Virus record (IMG/VR): IMGVR_UViG_3300032356_000008
Location: 1 to 31,948 of that record
DNA: 31,948 nucleotides
Source: a virus
Strand: one strand, 5' to 3'
Shown here: piece after piece, positions 102-31,948 of the stretch
Position numbering within the stretch: the first letter of the stretch is position 1
How the letters are laid out: each line of letters starts with the position of its first letter
Notes under the pieces: model-generated
Database searches by the model: none
Told to the model about the DNA's origin: nothing
The model's input: only the letters and a program-made list of their open reading frames with translations
Translations under genes and position numbers: made by a program

Positions 102-126
102 TTTTGCCTCCTTTTACCTGCGTATT
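1..126. repeat. Terminal direct repeat, left copy (circle closure)
   Basis: Identical to 31801-31926. After base 126 the two copies differ by a substitution and a one-base insertion inside the GC-rich element (GTATTTTGCCCCC here, GTATTCTGTCCCCC at the right end). This is the pattern expected when a circular or circularly permuted genome is assembled linearly. The unit length would be about 31,800 bp. Confidence 0.9.
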
Positions 127-160
127 TTGCCCCCGCAGGCGGGGGAAGTTTTTGCCTGCC
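116..160 (-). repeat. GC-rich structured repeat, copy A (short form)
   Basis: Read on the minus strand, the element runs GGCAGGCAAAAACTTCCCCC, a hairpin CCCCCGC-CT-GCGGGGG, then a run ending in ACGCAGGT. It sits between the stop of the 182-aa gene and the RBS of the 81-aa gene (across the junction). Copies B (759-845), C (31572-31657) and D (31916-31948, the same locus as A) share it. Copy A lacks the upstream part present in B and C, which carries CGGGG/CCCCG. It is strikingly GC-rich in an AT-rich genome. Function unknown. Confidence 0.85.
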
Positions 161-192
161 ATTTGTTCAAGGAAGGCAAGTTTCCTTAACCA

Positions 193-741
193 TCAAATAA
201 ACTCAATTACATTGTTAAGAAACTCCCAAATGTCATCATAATACTCATTTTGGCTGACAAGGCCCTTCTCTTGTAGGACCTTATGAATACACGTAGTAAG
301 GTCCCATGTAGTTGTCTCGGGACGTGCTACGTTAAGTAAGCAGATTACGTCTGCTACCATCGAGGACTCTAAGTTCTCGTTAACGTATACTAGAGAGACA
401 TAGTCACGTTCCTCTAGTAATTTAACGAGTTTGACAAAGTCAAACTCGCTTTTGAGGTAACGATATAATTCGCTACCTTTATAAAATACTTTTTCTAAAA
501 CCGGTTCTATTTTTACGAACCGGTTATTTTTAAATATGACATATGCTGTAGTTTTTAATTTTTCGGTCATGACCGGCATATATGCCGGTACCGGCCCATC
601 CAGTTTTTTTATTCTTTCTAATTCTTTTTTTAATCTATTCTTCGGCGATTTACCGCCGAAGATTTTTTCTAATTCCTCTCTAACAACATCGTCCCTGTAA
701 AGAACGATGTTAATACTTTTTTCATTTTTTTGTAAAATCAT
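193..741 (-). CDS. Hypothetical early protein, 182 aa, gene packed with hairpins
   Basis: I do not recognise a family. The start follows AAAAGGAGGAGAA. The protein is soluble-looking, charged in its first third (KNRLKKELERIKKL near residue 35) and more hydrophobic toward the C-terminus, with no membrane segment or cysteine motif. The DNA is unusual. About ten perfect or near-perfect stem-loops follow each other, including a 10-bp stem with a 3-nt loop at 426-448 and overlapping palindromes at 564-595. Codon use also differs from neighbours, with more AAG, GAG, GTC and CTA instead of the A/T-ending forms. The gene is flanked on both sides by the GC-rich repeat. It is probably a real gene because of its length and RBS, but the nucleic acid may itself be functional. 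Confidence 0.7.
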   Translation of the reverse strand: MILQKNEKSINIVLYRDDVVREELEKIFGGKSPKNRLKKELERIKKLDGPVPAYMPVMTEKLKTTAYVIFKNNRFVKIEPVLEKVFYKGSELYRYLKSEFDFVKLVKLLEERDYVSLVYVNENLESSMVADVICLLNVARPETTTWDLTTCIHKVLQEKGLVSQNEYYDDIWEFLNNVIEFI

Positions 742-758
742 TTCTCCTCCTTTTTTTT

Positions 759-845
759 ACCTGCGTATTCTGTCCCCCGCAGGCGGGGGAAGTTTTTGCC
801 TGCCTTTTGTTTACGGGGTTTCAGGCGTTTTCCCCGGGGCTTTTT
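759..845 (-). repeat. GC-rich structured repeat, copy B (long form)
   Basis: On the minus strand this is the leader of the 182-aa gene. Its order is a GGGCAACC-loop hairpin just upstream (about 846-862), CGGGG...CCCCG (5-bp stem), a loop GCCTG able to pair with the later CAGGC (a possible H-type pseudoknot), and then the CCCCCGC-CT-GCGGGGG hairpin. It shares near-complete identity with copy C over the core. An AAAGGAGGTGA motif lies upstream (about 865-875) with no start codon at usable spacing. Confidence 0.85.
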
Positions 846-918
846 AGGGTTGCCCGCCCTCTCACCTCCTTTTTTTATTTTAACTCTAATTTTTTTTAAA
901 GAACTTTTTTATAACTTA

Positions 919-1162: not shown

Positions 1163-1450
1163 TTAAAAAATATTTGATTCATACAAATCTTTTTTATTAA
1201 CAATATATTCAATATTATTTAAATATATTCTTACAAATTCATTATCATAGTTAAGAGATTTTACTTTTGAAATTTTTTCTTTGTTTATATATACTACTAA
1301 ATCATCCCCGTTTTTATATATTTTGTGATTCCAGTAACCTCTTGCAATTTTACCGTCTTCTGTTTCTAATACAAAAACATCATATGCTTTTTCATTCCAC
1401 CTTCCTTCAATCCACTTGCCTTCAATGTCTTTTACTTTTAAATTTTTCAT
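1163..1450 (-). CDS. Hypothetical early protein, 95 aa; first gene after the early promoter
   Basis: The start follows ACAGGAGGTGCTGAA. The protein opens MKNLKVKDIEGKWIEGRWNE and reads as a small beta-rich, aromatic protein (WIEGRW, GYWNHKIY), with alternating hydrophobic and charged stretches typical of small phage early proteins. No family is recognised. It lies about 40 bp downstream of a consensus sigma-70 promoter, so it is likely among the first proteins made after infection. A host-takeover or anti-defence role is possible but is inference only. Confidence 0.7.
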   Translation of the reverse strand: MKNLKVKDIEGKWIEGRWNEKAYDVFVLETEDGKIARGYWNHKIYKNGDDLVVYINKEKISKVKSLNYDNEFVRIYLNNIEYIVNKKDLYESNIF

Positions 1451-1491: not shown

Positions 1492-1520
1492 ATTATACAA
1501 AATAATTTTTAGTTTGTCAA
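1492..1520 (-). promoter_or_regulatory. Consensus sigma-70 promoter of the early operon
   Basis: The minus strand reads TTGACA (-35, 1515-1520), 17 bases, TATAAT (-10, 1492-1497). This is a perfect match at both hexamers and in spacing. It lies upstream of the 95-aa gene and downstream of the structured gap. No other gene start intervenes, so it should drive the leftward early operon through the circle junction. Confidence 0.9.
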
Positions 1521-22826: not shown

Positions 22827-23930
22827 TTAAGGAATTGGTGGAAGTCCCATTTCTTTGTTTTTATCATTCAATTTTTGCTTATACTCATGAAGTATTGCTT
22901 TGTCTTCGTCTTTAATGCTATTTGAAGTATTTTTATTTGTATTTTGTCTTACGTTTCCTGTCCCGTTGTCGTATTTGCCTTCCAAAATGTTTATATAGCG
23001 TGGACTTATAACAAAATCAAAGTCAACCTTCCAGTCGCTTTTTTTGCCAAGCAGAAAATCGCTTTGCTTGATTTTACTCAAAATAGCGTCAAAATCAAAT
23101 GTTTTTTCTCTTAATCTTGCCTTTAAGTGTTGTTTGCGTTTGTCGTTAAGCATAAGTATTTGTGCTAACCCGTTTTCCTTTGCAAAAGTATTCCATTTAT
23201 TAACAAAACTATTATAATCAATTTTATTTTTTTCAGCAGCTGAAATATATATATCTTTATTTTGGTTATTCTTATTTATGGTTATATCTTTATTTATGGT
23301 TATATCTTTATTTTGGTTATTCTTTAATACCTTATTATATTGGTCTAAATTTGATACCATAATGGTATCTTTTTTAGACCATAATGGTCTATTTTTTATA
23401 CTATATTGGTCTATATTTGATACTTTTAATGGTCTATTTTTTATACTATATTGGTCTATATTTGATACTTTTAATGGTCTATTTTTTATACTATATTGGT
23501 CTATATTTGATACTTTTAATGGTCTATTTTTTATACTATATTGGTCTATATTTGATACTTTTAATGGTCTATTTTTTATACCATCTGCCTGCTGCAAAAA
23601 TATTTTGGGAGTTATAGTATAATAATTTCTTGGTGGTATTCCTTTTCTACGTTTTACTTTTATATAACCATTATTTTCCAGCCATTTCAAAGCTTTCATA
23701 ATACTTATCCGATTAATATTAAAAAATTCTGATAATTGTTTAATACTCTGATATATTTCAATTTCATTTTCAATTTTTTTAAAAATCTCATCTCTATAAT
23801 TATCATTTTTTAGTAATTCCCATTGGTCAAACTTTTCAAACCAATCACTTAAATCAAACAATCTTGCAAAAATAAGCGCTGCAGTCCCATTTTCTTTTGC
23901 GATTTCCCAAAACAAAATACCGTTTATCAT
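22827..23930 (-). CDS. Replication initiator with winged helix and in-gene iterons
   Basis: A 367-aa protein. Residues about 1-110 form a helical start and a winged helix (SIKQLSEFFNINRISIMKAL, KWLENNGYIKVKRRKG), the DNA-binding part. Residues about 117-182 are four perfect 15-aa repeats (unit IKNRPLKVSNIDQYS) plus a degenerate one, which are the translation of the DNA iterons. Then comes an N/K-rich linker with DITINK repeats. The C-terminal part (about 235-320, NSFVNKWNTFAKENGLAQIL..., FDAILSKIKQSDFLLGKKSDWKVDFDFVI) resembles initiator/DnaD-type C-terminal domains that contact the helicase loader. It starts in an ATGA overlap after AAGGAGGTAGA. Confidence 0.8.
   Translation of the reverse strand: MINGILFWEIAKENGTAALIFARLFDLSDWFEKFDQWELLKNDNYRDEIFKKIENEIEIYQSIKQLSEFFNINRISIMKALKWLENNGYIKVKRRKGIPPRNYYTITPKIFLQQADGIKNRPLKVSNIDQYSIKNRPLKVSNIDQYSIKNRPLKVSNIDQYSIKNRPLKVSNIDQYSIKNRPLWSKKDTIMVSNLDQYNKVLKNNQNKDITINKDITINKNNQNKDIYISAAEKNKIDYNSFVNKWNTFAKENGLAQILMLNDKRKQHLKARLREKTFDFDAILSKIKQSDFLLGKKSDWKVDFDFVISPRYINILEGKYDNGTGNVRQNTNKNTSNSIKDEDKAILHEYKQKLNDKNKEMGLPPIP
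23256..23330. other. AT-rich repeat tract, likely DNA unwinding element
   Basis: Nearly pure A/T with short direct repeats (TTTATTTATGGTTATATC twice, with TTTATTTTGGTTATTC variants on either side). It lies immediately beside the iterons inside the initiator gene, as the AT-rich stretch does in the lambda origin. It encodes the repeated NNQNKDITINK segment. Confidence 0.65.
23342..23380. promoter_or_regulatory. Dyad at the edge of the iterons
   Basis: GGTCTAA...TTAGACC (7-bp arms) encloses GATACCA-TAA-TGGTATC (7-bp arms). It replaces one iteron period and contains the same GGTCTA and TTTGATAC words, so it reads as a diverged iteron turned into a dyad. It is a probable initiator binding site. 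Confidence 0.6.
23386..23580. repeat. Iteron array: four perfect 45-bp tandem repeats plus a 15-bp partial; likely replication origin
   Basis: Copies at 23386-23430, 23431-23475, 23476-23520 and 23521-23565 are identical, and a fifth stops after 15 bases. Each unit has two GGTCTA words and one TTTGATAC. The period is 45 bp (15 codons, about 4 helical turns). The array lies inside the initiator gene next to an AT-rich tract and a helicase loader gene, the arrangement of lambda O/ori and related phages. Confidence 0.85.
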
Positions 23931-26639: not shown

Positions 26640-26938
26640 TTTACACCTCCTGATTTTTTATTACTGATTTTCTTTTTAATTAACTCTTTTTTTTCTTCAA
26701 TCAATTGTGGTAATGCCGTTCTACAGTATAACATACCTTTTATCTCTATTTCATCGTTTATATCAAGTAAGTCATAAAACGTTAACAGCTGGAAAATATG
26801 CGATAAAATAAAAAACAAAGTTAGCTTGTCGTTTTTTGTTAATTCAAAAAAAATATTGTCAAATTCTTTTACAACTTTATAATACTCTTTTTTAAACTCA
26901 TAATCAATAGTATCATCAATATCATAATCTTTTATCAT
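26636..26938 (-). CDS. Hypothetical protein, 100 aa, helical
   Basis: It opens MIKDYDIDDTIDYEFKKEYY, with an acidic start, a hydrophobic helix LTLFFILSHIFQLLTFYDLL in the middle, and a lysine-rich end. The RBS is AGGAGGTGTAGA, at the end of the upstream gene. No family is recognised. Confidence 0.6.
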   Translation of the reverse strand: MIKDYDIDDTIDYEFKKEYYKVVKEFDNIFFELTKNDKLTLFFILSHIFQLLTFYDLLDINDEIEIKGMLYCRTALPQLIEEKKELIKKKISNKKSGGVK

Positions 26939-27112: not shown

Positions 27113-27748
27113 TTACCACCCCCTTGTTGACACGATTGGTTTTTGATATATTTTAACGCCAGGGATGTCTCTTATCCCCCTGTTTATTGCTTCCCTTATT
27201 TTGCCAGCATCAGGACTACAATATTCACGAGGAACTAATGATTCATTTTCAATTTCGTAAGTCCAAATCATTTTTGTCGTTGTTGTTCCCAGCCCTGATT
27301 TAGCACTTACCTTAACTTCAATTTTAGCAAGTTTTTCGGCATACTCCTGCTTATCAACTACCATTTGTTTTAATTCCTCGTTCTCTTTTGCCAATTGTTC
27401 AAGCAGTTTCGCTTGCGCTTCAATTTCTGCTTGTTTCTTTTTTAATTTCTCTTCCTGTTTCTTTTTCTGTTCAATCTGATATTCAGATATTACTTTTTCC
27501 AAATTTATTTTAATATCAAGTAAAGGCGCTAAAACTTTGTCGCCCAATTCGTTTACTTTTTTCATAAACTCTCTTGCTGGCTGTGTATATTCCTTTATCT
27601 TTTTTTCAATCTCTTTTATATCGCTTTTCACAAGCGCAAGCATATCTGCGCTTGTTTTAAGTTCCTGCTCTGTTTCTATTTTTTTTGGTATTTCATAATC
27701 TTTAATTTTTACCTTTAAGTCCTTTTCAATTGTCGTTAAGATATTCAT
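27113..27748 (-). CDS. Coiled-coil recombination-associated phage protein (DUF1351-like)
   Basis: A 211-aa protein. The start was chosen at MNILTTIEKDLKVKIKDYEI with AAAGGAGGGCAAAA upstream. A long coiled coil (about 25-155) is followed by a conserved-looking C-terminal domain: TKMIWTYEIENESLVPREYC, KIREAINRGIRDIPGVKIYQ. That ending (lVPreY...kIr.ai..G.r.iPGv.iy) is shared by phage proteins encoded beside single-strand annealing proteins. The role is probably structural or nuclease-partner in recombination. It overlaps the SSAP gene by 23 bases. Confidence 0.65.
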   Translation of the reverse strand: MNILTTIEKDLKVKIKDYEIPKKIETEQELKTSADMLALVKSDIKEIEKKIKEYTQPAREFMKKVNELGDKVLAPLLDIKINLEKVISEYQIEQKKKQEEKLKKKQAEIEAQAKLLEQLAKENEELKQMVVDKQEYAEKLAKIEVKVSAKSGLGTTTTKMIWTYEIENESLVPREYCSPDAGKIREAINRGIRDIPGVKIYQKPIVSTRGW

Positions 27749-29605: not shown

Positions 29606-29947
29606 TTACACCTCCTTTTTTATTTTTTCTTGTATAACTGTTTCAATTAAAAATTCAAGAGCGCTTGTTAAGTTTCCACGTAAATAAACAACGTAATATG
29701 ACACTTCCTCCTCTCTGTTATCTTCATAATATCTCCGCACTATATAGAATGATTCACCATAAAAACCATTTTTTAAAAACTCATCTTTTTCTACTTCTGT
29801 TTTTATTTTTACTACCCTTCCACCTGCTGGAATAAAAACATCATACTCATTCCACCAACTCGCCAAATGCCAATTATTTCTTTCATCCCTAAATTCTTTT
29901 GTTAGTTCATCTTTGTTGTTAACTTCTTTCAAATACAAATTTAACAT
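29606..29947 (-). CDS. Early protein, 113 aa, paralogue of the 134-aa protein at 31147
   Basis: Pattern shared with the 134-aa protein: YLKE opening, NER/DERxxW, SWW/SSWF-x-x-Y, V-x-IKTE, a block ending in VRRYYED against VHKRVYEDD, then Y-Y-V-V-Y-L-R against Y-Y-L-Y-Y-V-K and a final helix ALEFLIE against AIKFLIE. No external family is recognised. The RBS is GGAGGTGAGTAAG. The tail IKKEV is the RBS of the next gene. Confidence 0.65.
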   Translation of the reverse strand: MLNLYLKEVNNKDELTKEFRDERNNWHLASWWNEYDVFIPAGGRVVKIKTEVEKDEFLKNGFYGESFYIVRRYYEDNREEEVSYYVVYLRGNLTSALEFLIETVIQEKIKKEV

Positions 29948-30613: not shown

Positions 30614-31024
30614 TTAATATACTCTAAATCTTACAAATTTAAAAACAGAGATTTTTTCCCCGTTTTCTTTTTCAACTACTTCCCGTTTTGTCGTTGCTAC
30701 AACGGGTATTTTTTCCCAACCTTTTAACATTTTTACTAAATTATATGTTAATGAGAATTCCCCCTGACACATTATATATTTAAAATTGTATTCCCCTAAC
30801 TCTTTTAAAACATTTTCGGCAATTTCTTTTACTTCCAAAATGTCCGCTTCTGGCGGAACATTCGGAAAAGGTATATCAATGATTTGAAAGTCAACCTTCC
30901 AATTTTGATAACCTTCCATTACAAGTGAGTAAAAAGCATCCCTTTGCTCCTGCGACCATTTGTCGCTTGGGTGGTTGCTCAAATTAATCGCAACCACTTT
31001 TTGTTTTTGTGTTAATTCGTTCAT
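30614..31024 (-). CDS. Csx20/CARF-type ring-nuclease-like protein (possible anti-CRISPR)
   Basis: A 136-aa Rossmann-like protein with a recognisable set of motifs: NLSNHPSDKWSQEQ (14-27), IDIPFPNVPPEAD (49-61), CQGEFSLTYNLVKML (86-100), VVATTKREVVE (108-118) and a C-terminal FKFVRFRVY. The combination of a LSNHP-W-Q opening, PFP, GE-F-T-x-x-LV, ATTxR and VRFRxY is that of small proteins linked with CRISPR-Cas and related to the Csx20/Csx16 ring-nuclease group. These degrade cyclic oligoadenylate, the signal of type III CRISPR. In a phage it would silence that defence. The RBS is AAAGGAGGA. The family link is from memory of the pattern, not from a search. Confidence 0.5.
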   Translation of the reverse strand: MNELTQKQKVVAINLSNHPSDKWSQEQRDAFYSLVMEGYQNWKVDFQIIDIPFPNVPPEADILEVKEIAENVLKELGEYNFKYIMCQGEFSLTYNLVKMLKGWEKIPVVATTKREVVEKENGEKISVFKFVRFRVY

Positions 31025-31065: not shown

Positions 31066-31108
31066 AAGCCGTTAATCAGCGTGCTTTTACACGGCCGATT
31101 AACGGCTT
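31066..31108 (-). terminator. Intrinsic terminator within the early operon
   Basis: On the minus strand a 12-bp stem (AAGCCGTTAATC / GATTAACGGCTT) with an inner CGTG/CACG hairpin is followed by TTTTTTATTTT. It should end or attenuate transcription coming from the 1.5-kb early promoter and across the junction, so genes below it need antitermination or another promoter. None was recognised in the gap. Confidence 0.8.
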
Positions 31109-31120
31109 ACGTATATTTTA

Positions 31121-31136
31121 CCTGCTCGCCAGCAGG
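31121..31136 (-). other. Short GC hairpin before the terminator
   Basis: CCTGCT and AGCAGG pair across a 4-nt loop. It lies between the 31137 hairpin and the terminator, making three hairpins in a row. It could be an RNA-stability element. Confidence 0.6.
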
Positions 31137-31168
31137 AAAGAAACAATTACTTTTGTAATTGTTTCTTT
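31137..31168 (-). other. 14-bp hairpin overlapping the end of the 134-aa gene
   Basis: Arms AAAGAAACAATTAC and GTAATTGTTTCTTT with a 4-nt loop. The stem includes the last codons and the stop of the 134-aa gene. It may be a bidirectional terminator or 3' protection. Confidence 0.7.
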
Positions 31169-31551
31169 AAAGATTTAATTATTCTATTTCTTACTTTTAT
31201 TTTTCTATATAAATCAGCTTTTTCTAACTCTATTAAAAATTTAATCGCATCTGTTAAATATTCTTTAACATAATATAAATAATACTCAATATCAACCCTT
31301 TCATCGTCTTCGTATACCCGTTTATGCACAAAATAATTTATATTAAAATTATTATTTTGTATATACTTTTCCCTTTGTTCTTCAGTTTTTATTTCAATCA
31401 CATTTGAACTGTCCAGACATATCGAGTAGCCGTCAAACCAGCTGCTTGATACCCAATTATTCATTGATTCCCACCCTACTCTTTCATTTTCAAACAATTC
31501 TTTTATTTCTTCTTTTCCTTTTTCTTTTAAATACACATCATATCTATACAT
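31147..31551 (-). CDS. Early protein, 134 aa, paralogue of the 113-aa protein at 29606
   Basis: It opens MYRYDVYLKEKGKEEIKELF and has the shared W, Y and acidic pattern described for the paralogue, plus a C-terminal basic helix (KVRNRIIKSLKKQLQK) missing from the shorter copy. No external family is recognised. The RBS is AGAGGAGGTTTATT, just after repeat copy C. Confidence 0.65.
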   Translation of the reverse strand: MYRYDVYLKEKGKEEIKELFENERVGWESMNNWVSSSWFDGYSICLDSSNVIEIKTEEQREKYIQNNNFNINYFVHKRVYEDDERVDIEYYLYYVKEYLTDAIKFLIELEKADLYRKIKVRNRIIKSLKKQLQK

Positions 31552-31571: not shown

Positions 31572-31657
31572 ACCTGCGTATTTTACCCCCGCCTGCGGGG
31601 GAAGTTTTTGCCTGCCTTTTGTTTACGGGGTTTCAGGCGTTTCCCCGGGGCTTTTTT
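31572..31657 (-). repeat. GC-rich structured repeat, copy C (long form)
   Basis: Nearly identical to copy B over the core, but the two-base loop of the palindrome is inverted (the minus strand reads CCCCCGC-AG-GCGGGGG here, CT in A and B). Upstream, AAGCGGT/ACCGCTT (31658-31680) forms a stem around GGGCA. Copy B has a stem of different sequence at the same place around the same GGGCAACC, so pairing is kept while sequence changes. It lies between the 81-aa and 134-aa genes. Confidence 0.85.
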
Positions 31658-31901
31658 AAGCGGTTGCCCTTTTACCGCTTTCACCTCCTTCTTTTTTAAT
31701 TACGTAGATTGCAAACATTGTTTGCAATCTTAATTCTTCTTCTTTTGAGTTAAAAAATTCTTCCAGTATCTTGTCCACGTCGTTGTAACACCCCTTCAAT
31801 CTGTTTAAAACTTCATTCGTTTCTTCTTCTTCACTTCTCTCTCCTGATTGCTTGTCTACTCTAATTATTTTTATTTTTTTAATTTCATTTTTTCTTTTCA
31901 T
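31656..31901 (-). CDS. Hypothetical early protein, 81 aa
   Basis: It opens MKRKNEIKKIKIIRVDKQSG, then an acidic stretch and a helix VLNRLKGCYNDVDKILEEFF, and ends EGGESGKRATA. The last codons contain AAGGAGGTGA and the 5' arm of the copy C hairpin, so stop codon and structured element are interlocked. The RBS is AAAGGAGGCAAAA, directly after repeat copy A/D. No family is recognised. Confidence 0.65.
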   Translation of the reverse strand: MKRKNEIKKIKIIRVDKQSGERSEEEETNEVLNRLKGCYNDVDKILEEFFNSKEEELRLQTMFAIYVIKKEGGESGKRATA

Positions 31902-31926
31902 TTTTGCCTCCTTTTACCTGCGTATT
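31801..31926. repeat. Terminal direct repeat, right copy
   Basis: Exact copy of 1-126. The following 22 bases match repeat copy B (759-791) better than copy A at the left end. Either the assembler entered another copy of the repeat or the population is mixed at this site. Confidence 0.9.
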
Positions 31927-31948
31927 CTGTCCCCCGCAGGCGGGGGAA
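31916..31948 (-). repeat. GC-rich structured repeat, copy D, cut by the window end
   Basis: The first 33 bases of the repeat. On the circle this is the same locus as copy A, with GTATTCTGTCCCCC instead of GTATTTTGCCCCC. Confidence 0.8.

Follow-up and report, generated by a model that had tools for sequence, protein, structure and literature searches.

A repeated, pseudoknot-capable RNA element preceding early genes in two related phages

Background

To our knowledge, most structured RNA elements described in phages come from a handful of mesophilic model systems. In bacteria, REP/BIME-type intergenic hairpins protect upstream mRNA. Phage HK022 has put RNAs of about 70 nt, folded into two stem-loops; they require no phage protein for their action and bind to the zinc-binding domain of beta' (PMC9378689). 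At the level of translation, gene 32 of T4 was described as possibly the sole viral case of a pseudoknot involved in autoregulation (PMC3014915). In the STAB-SD of cry3A, a Shine-Dalgarno (SD) sequence does not start translation; instead, the bound 30S subunit blocks RNase J1 (PMC4113751).

The element described here comes from a viral record in IMG/VR, 31,948 bases long and of 31% GC, which was analysed over its whole length (hereafter, the window). Like HK022 put, it appears as a structured RNA of a phage early operon, present in similar copies upstream of terminators. With the gene 32 operators of T4, T2 and RB69 it shares a predicted coaxial H-type pseudoknot upstream of the RBS, followed by an A-rich unpaired stretch. 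As in the STAB-SD of Bacillus thuringiensis cry3A, an untranslated region has, towards its 5' side, a strong SD without a start codon. Finally, it resembles REP/BIME-type hairpins in being a GC-rich palindromic repeat between cistrons.

Results and discussion

Copies of the element and organization of the early operon

The ends of the record are redundant, positions 1-134 repeating 31801-31934 at 99% identity, and the genome is therefore either circular or terminally redundant, its period being 31,800-31,801 nt. The predicted genes are on the minus strand. Downstream of the early promoter, their order is ORF 919-1143 (919-1212 in the ORF list), copy c2, ORF 193-741, copy c1, ORF 31656-31901 and copy c3, then ORF 31147-31551, the terminator, the Csx20-like ORF 30614-31024 and more early genes. 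Replication genes follow, then the terminase and structural genes. PK1, PK2 and PK3 below designate predicted pseudoknots, and S1 and S2 their stems.

1492-1520, minus strand: early promoter of sigma-70 type, TTGACA-17-TATAAT, 12/12 match
759-869, minus strand: full copy c2, with orphan SD, 5' hairpin/PK1, PK2, GC hairpin/PK3 and conserved ACGCAGGT tail
863-869, minus strand: GGAGGTG, the orphan SD of c2, without a start codon at a distance of 3-13 nt
193-741, minus strand: gene immediately after c2, 182 aa, without family match
116-189, minus strand: partial copy c1, with conserved 3' part (116-166), a different 5' half, no PK1 and no orphan SD
31916-31948, minus strand: record end, c1 locus with c2-matching bases, probable assembly switch
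31656-31901, minus strand: gene immediately after c1, 81 aa, without significant family match
31572-31688, minus strand: full copy c3, with orphan SD (31688-31682), PK2 (31647-31610) and inverted-loop GC hairpin (31601-31586)
31147-31551, minus strand: gene directly downstream of c3, 134 aa
31066-31108, minus strand: intrinsic terminator, the only strong one on this strand, -27.6 kcal/mol, one gene downstream of c3

The repeat was confirmed. When 759-875 was compared at the DNA level with the genome carrying it, c2 and c3 displayed 86% identity across 117-123 nt (E 6.9e-34), and c1 matched the same query at 94% over 52 nt (E 4e-18). Copies c3 and c2 also contain the two GC-richest 60-nt stretches of the window, and c1 contains the fifth. 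The first-pass annotation had placed copies at 116-160, 759-845 and 31572-31657, each between a stop codon and the next RBS. These positions were right, and all three copies follow this order on the minus strand; the 5' part of c3 overlaps the end of ORF 31656-31901. For the copy at 116-160, the short conserved part was recovered as described, but c1 is not a mere fragment, as its 5' half makes a pseudoknot of its own (see below). The last 37 nt of the record (31912-31948) are identical to c2 (755-791) and not to c1 (112-148), although the locus is that of c1. Probably the assembly changed path at the repeat; alternatively, a strain variant carries a c2-like copy at that place.

On their 5' side, c2 and c3 extend beyond the bounds first noted, up to the orphan GGAGGTG at 869 and 31688, respectively. 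Judged by sequence, this motif is present in all three full copies (c2, c3 and the copy from a related phage described below) and absent from c1. Among the 13 GGAGGTG on the minus strand of the window, only the two at the edges of c2 and c3 have no start codon within 3-13 nt; nearly all others start a gene, and the one at 26650 opens a frame of 25 codons.

Distribution

A fourth copy was found in the related contig IMGVR_UViG_3300029625_000019 (hereafter G002), whose terminase is 92% identical and which originates from Yellowstone hot spring SJ3 (61.9 C, pH 5.4; PMC8098120, PMC6368606). It lies at 27549-27666, with 92% identity (E 4e-45), or 93% over 127 nt in a second comparison, and its GGAGGTG opens 4 codons only. 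Most genes that align between the two phages do so at 70-89%, and the early genes flanking the element do not align; at about 93%, the element is thus above most of them. Behind the G002 copy comes a 209-aa gene that has no relationship to those following the window copies. In all four copies, then, the downstream genes are different and match no family, and the element lies 4-10 nt upstream of the real SD. Structure predictions of the 182-aa and 209-aa downstream proteins were too poor for use (pLDDT 37 and 34). Since a paralogue of ORF 31147-31551 (29606-29947, minus strand; 33% identity, E 4e-17) has no element in front of it, the element is not tied to a gene family.

Exact-pattern scans of the 2.9 million viral contigs of IMG/VR and, with an exact 19-mer, of the genomes of 84,980 species returned G002 and chance matches only; diverged homologues would escape both. 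No match to the element was obtained in phage and plasmid DNA records. A viral scan by early protein found G002 again and nothing else, and a terminase-based search for the host in 291 genomes from one bacterial class, chosen for a chance match in it, yielded nothing. The covariance model search called for by the first-pass annotation recovered only the four known copies and the cut record end (48 sources; 44 terminase-sharing viral loci). In Rfam, cmscan reported no family at or above gathering in the window, and permissive scans of c2 and c3 gave sub-threshold matches only, all with E of at least 0.26. The suggestion of a tiny mobile repeat found no support, no other searched genome (viral, species genomes, phage, plasmid) carrying a copy.

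Predicted structure

Read on the minus strand, c2 begins with the orphan SD GGAGGUG and a hairpin, AGGG-CGGGCAA-CCCU, followed without a gap by PK2 (CGGGG-AAAAC-GCCUG-AAA-CCCCG-UAAACAAAAGG-CAGGC). Then come AAAAACUU, the hairpin CCCCCG-CCUG-CGGGGG, ACAGAAUA, CGCAGGU, an A-rich spacer and the real SD of the next gene. The predicted parts are as follows.

837-860, minus strand: PK1 of c2; S1 AGGG (860-857)/CCCT (849-846); loop GGGC (855-852) complementary to GCCC (840-837)
798-836, minus strand: PK2 of c2; S1 CGGGG (836-832)/CCCCG (818-814); S2 GCCTG (826-822)/CAGGC (802-798); stem replaced in c1
759-789, minus strand: GC hairpin of c2, CCCCCG-CCTG-CGGGGG (789-774); possible PK3 with ACGCAGGT (766-759)
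31658-31680, minus strand: PK1 S1 of c3, AAGCGGT (31680-31674)/ACCGCTT (31664-31658); 0/20000 shuffles as stable
167-189, minus strand: S1 of the c1 pseudoknot, TTAAGGAA (189-182)/TTCCTTGA (174-167), 8 bp
155-180, minus strand: S2 of the c1 pseudoknot, CTTGCC (180-175)/GGCAGG (160-155), the loop pairing with the conserved GGCAGG

The pairing of CGGGG with CCCCG, with a loop GCCTG matching a later CAGGC, is present as initially claimed, and the stems of the element ranked at the top of the minus-strand H-type pseudoknots scored. The GC hairpin announced as 7 bp long does exist, with a stem of 6 bp and a 4-nt loop; the GC hairpin/PK3 region had the best crude score on the minus strand (-20.6 kcal/mol). 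In c3 the loop of this hairpin is inverted (CAGG vs CCTG) and the stem kept. Because the GGGC loop of the 5' hairpin is complementary to the GCCC directly before CGGGG, this hairpin is also a possible pseudoknot (PK1).

The stem of this 5' hairpin had been said to differ in sequence, yet to pair, in both long copies. This was borne out and extends to G002: S1 of PK1 reads AGGG/CCCU in c2, AAGCGGU/ACCGCUU in c3 and AAGGGU/ACCCUU in G002, with GGGC as the loop in all three. When the letters outside GGGCA were shuffled, an equally stable stem around GGGC arose 44 (c2), 0 (c3) and 4 (G002) times in 20,000 each. Likewise, the pseudoknot made with GGCAGG by the replacement 5' half of c1 (189-167; S1 as RNA, UUAAGGAA/UUCCUUGA) was matched by 2/2000 shuffles and by 3/3000 random genomic 26-mers. 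All these structure tests were post hoc, made once the sequences had been inspected; the comparison comprises four sequences, too few for any covariation statistic, and MAFFT leaves the replaced stems unaligned. Between c2 and G002, five positions differ in the 81-nt core, all within two long A-rich loops. S2 of PK1 is identical in all copies having PK1, so that no variation bears on it, and S2 of PK3 is broken in c3.

Nested folding energies of the copies were no better than those of dinucleotide shuffles (z -0.54, -0.08, -1.20 and -1.25). For c2 and G002, the nested structure of lowest energy is a rival to the pseudoknots, with GGGGAA/UUCCCC around GCCUG/CAGGC plus GCCUGCG/CGCAGGU. The pseudoknot model was favoured because c3, with its inverted loop, is unable to form the second helix of this structure, and because S1 of the c1 pseudoknot has no role in it. 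Switching between the two folds is possible, judging from these models.

The initial proposal of a structured RNA on the early transcript, able to form pseudoknots, is thus supported by stems that were replaced in independent copies and stayed complementary, and by the copy in a second phage. The element was also examined for a conserved encoded peptide, and the frames compared in c1, c2, c3 and G002 revealed none. Starting at a CTG within the PK2 loop, the longest frame in common is open in c2 but ends early in G002 (CGT TAA) and ahead of the tail in c3, and the ATG frames of c1 and G002 are absent from c2 and c3.

A feature acting as DNA, such as a palindromic site for protein binding or recombination, a plus-strand terminator or a small mobile repeat, would agree with the GC hairpin followed by AAGTTTTTG on the plus strand, and with the inverted loop of c3, as palindromes can be inverted. 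Yet the replaced stems still pair, plus-strand genes are not evident and no copy occurs in the 84,980 species' genomes (exact 19-mer) or elsewhere searched, which makes such a feature very improbable. Its terminator version was dropped, as neither c1 nor G002 retains the T-rich tail behind the longer hairpin of that strand.

The unpaired AAAAACUU and AAUACGCAGGUAAA are as invariant as the stems. This suggests specific recognition and not a mere roadblock, or else simply recent copying.

Possible functions

The copies were confirmed to lie between the early promoter (1520-1492) and a terminator of the same transcript (31066-31108), as expected of put sites. In G002, the strongest minus-strand terminator (-30.3 kcal/mol) is also one gene downstream of the element; the other minus-strand terminators of both phages reach -16.6 kcal/mol at most. 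Placement is the same although the gene between the last element and the terminator is not homologous between the two phages. In the window, the next gene starts about 40 nt behind the terminator, with no good promoter between them. Together with the 12/12 promoter upstream, this is the arrangement expected of a put- or nut-like system, and a cis-acting antiterminator accordingly remains a strong rival. Put-like, or as a nut-like site for a phage protein, it would as nascent RNA modify RNA polymerase and let it read through 31066-31108 and express the genes behind, including the Csx20-like one; HK022 likewise has two similar put copies (PMC9378689). Against this, three copies precede one terminator, c1 is missing the 5' part, and weaker promoter-like sites are found further downstream. 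Moreover, the copies are flush with RBSs, and the orphan SD is left unexplained. Instead of two stem-loops of about 70 nt downstream of early promoters, as in lambdoid phages, the element displays a 5' hairpin and one or two pseudoknots over about 110 nt, or two or three tandem pseudoknots if the 5' hairpin is counted as such. It also differs from put in its three copies within one operon, at RBSs and with an orphan SD; antitermination is here a conjecture, which we consider somewhat unlikely.

A second possibility is a translational operator or riboswitch common to several early genes, where a protein or ligand on the pseudoknots would repress or activate the adjacent SD, thereby forming a small regulon. 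The position just upstream of the SD in all four copies, the invariant unpaired bases and the mutually exclusive folds, which a switch requires (tandem pseudoknots vs nested GGGGAA/UUCCCC plus GCCUGCG/CGCAGGU), all fit. There is also the precedent of T4 gene 32, where gp32 acts at its pseudoknot (PMC3014915), and an H-type pseudoknot upstream of an RBS was found in the four copies of the two related phages, S2 of PK3 being broken in c3. However, none of the helices includes the SD, c3 cannot adopt the competing nested fold, no binding partner was identified and the downstream genes are without family match. In T4, T2 and RB69, by contrast, a single gene is autogenously controlled through one pseudoknot 67 nt upstream of the start, whereas the element has tandem pseudoknots before different genes. 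This possibility was rated unlikely, slightly below antitermination.

Our preferred reading, itself tentative, is a cis-acting structured mRNA module of the early operon, with a post-transcriptional effect on the directly downstream gene, most readily by stabilisation and ribosome capture. Its starting points, namely the transcript strand, the repeated copies, the structured 5' and middle parts, the orphan SD with which each full copy begins and the fixed place 4-10 nt before the real SD, are observed directly or well supported. The orphan SD would capture a 30S subunit that does not initiate, and exonucleases would be stopped at the GC-rich pseudoknots, presumed to stay folded at about 60 C within this AT-rich message. 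If the transcript were then cleaved between cistrons, the next gene would be left with a shielded 5' end and an accessible RBS, in a STAB-SD-like manner, and the preceding one with a protected 3' end. Modules made of the element and a gene may have been shuffled among early genes.

A function in the mRNA of each gene was placed first because every copy, even the partial c1, abuts the SD of a different gene, because the copies are repeated in one operon before a single terminator where antitermination needs one copy, and because ribosome capture explains the orphan SD whereas antitermination does not. Some observations count against an mRNA stabiliser: c1 has neither orphan SD nor PK1, the unpaired bases are invariant and nested energies do not exceed those of shuffles. 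The terminator context fits this module and antitermination equally well, and the three leading functions are close in probability. As the element has a terminator nearby, antitermination and mRNA protection should be distinguishable.

Compared with known stabilisers, an SD-like sequence that does not appear to start translation is found in c2, c3 and G002 and is absent from c1. The cry3A STAB-SD has no tandem pseudoknots and is located in a 5' UTR, whereas the element lies between cistrons, and 30S binding and an RNase J block are putative here. Unlike REP/BIME repeats, the element is phage-borne and of low copy number, has pseudoknot potential and invariant loops and is always flush with an RBS.

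A trans-acting RNA, released from the early transcript as a decoy for host defence or an RNase, could be imagined from the several copies in an operon that also encodes a Csx20-like ring-nuclease candidate. Such a role is highly improbable, given that each copy is tied to an RBS, that Rfam gave no match and that no processing signal was seen. A type III toxin-antitoxin RNA (ToxI-like) was rejected, as there are no identical repeats and no toxN-like gene downstream.

The element might even define a new class of phage regulatory RNA, combining an orphan SD and tandem pseudoknots in a cassette that has moved before different early genes of thermophilic phages, although we regard this as doubtful. 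It would be either a protein-free antiterminator of new fold or an exonuclease-blocking, ribosome-trapping RNA of bacterial viruses. If true, a small module of tandem pseudoknots, present in several copies and functional at about 60 C, would provide a new example and a heat-stable RNA part, at work in an early, probably counter-defence operon.

Other features of the genome

The first gene after the early promoter (1163-1450, minus strand) gave a weak Pfam match, below cut-off, to NARF, the nucleotidyltransferase-associated Rossmannoid fold (E 7e-4). Just before the terminator, a small hairpin (31110-31130, minus strand; CCTGCT-GGCG-AGCAGG) is followed by TAAAATATACG; its likeness to the GCAGGTAAA/ATACG motifs of the element may be due to chance. 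The first gene behind the terminator (30614-31024, minus strand) is Csx20-like (PADLOC PDLC01397, E 5e-27; NCBIfam NF040559, E 1e-13, below cut-off). Csx20 is a confirmed cA4 ring nuclease recorded in 4 of 28,114 phage genomes (PMC12409355), and this resemblance makes 30614-31024 a candidate type III anti-CRISPR. Finally, perfect 45-nt tandem repeats at 23382-23561 (minus strand) encode the repeated 15-residue KNRPLKVSNIDQYSI within the replication O-like protein 22827-23930, and are possibly an iteron-like origin.
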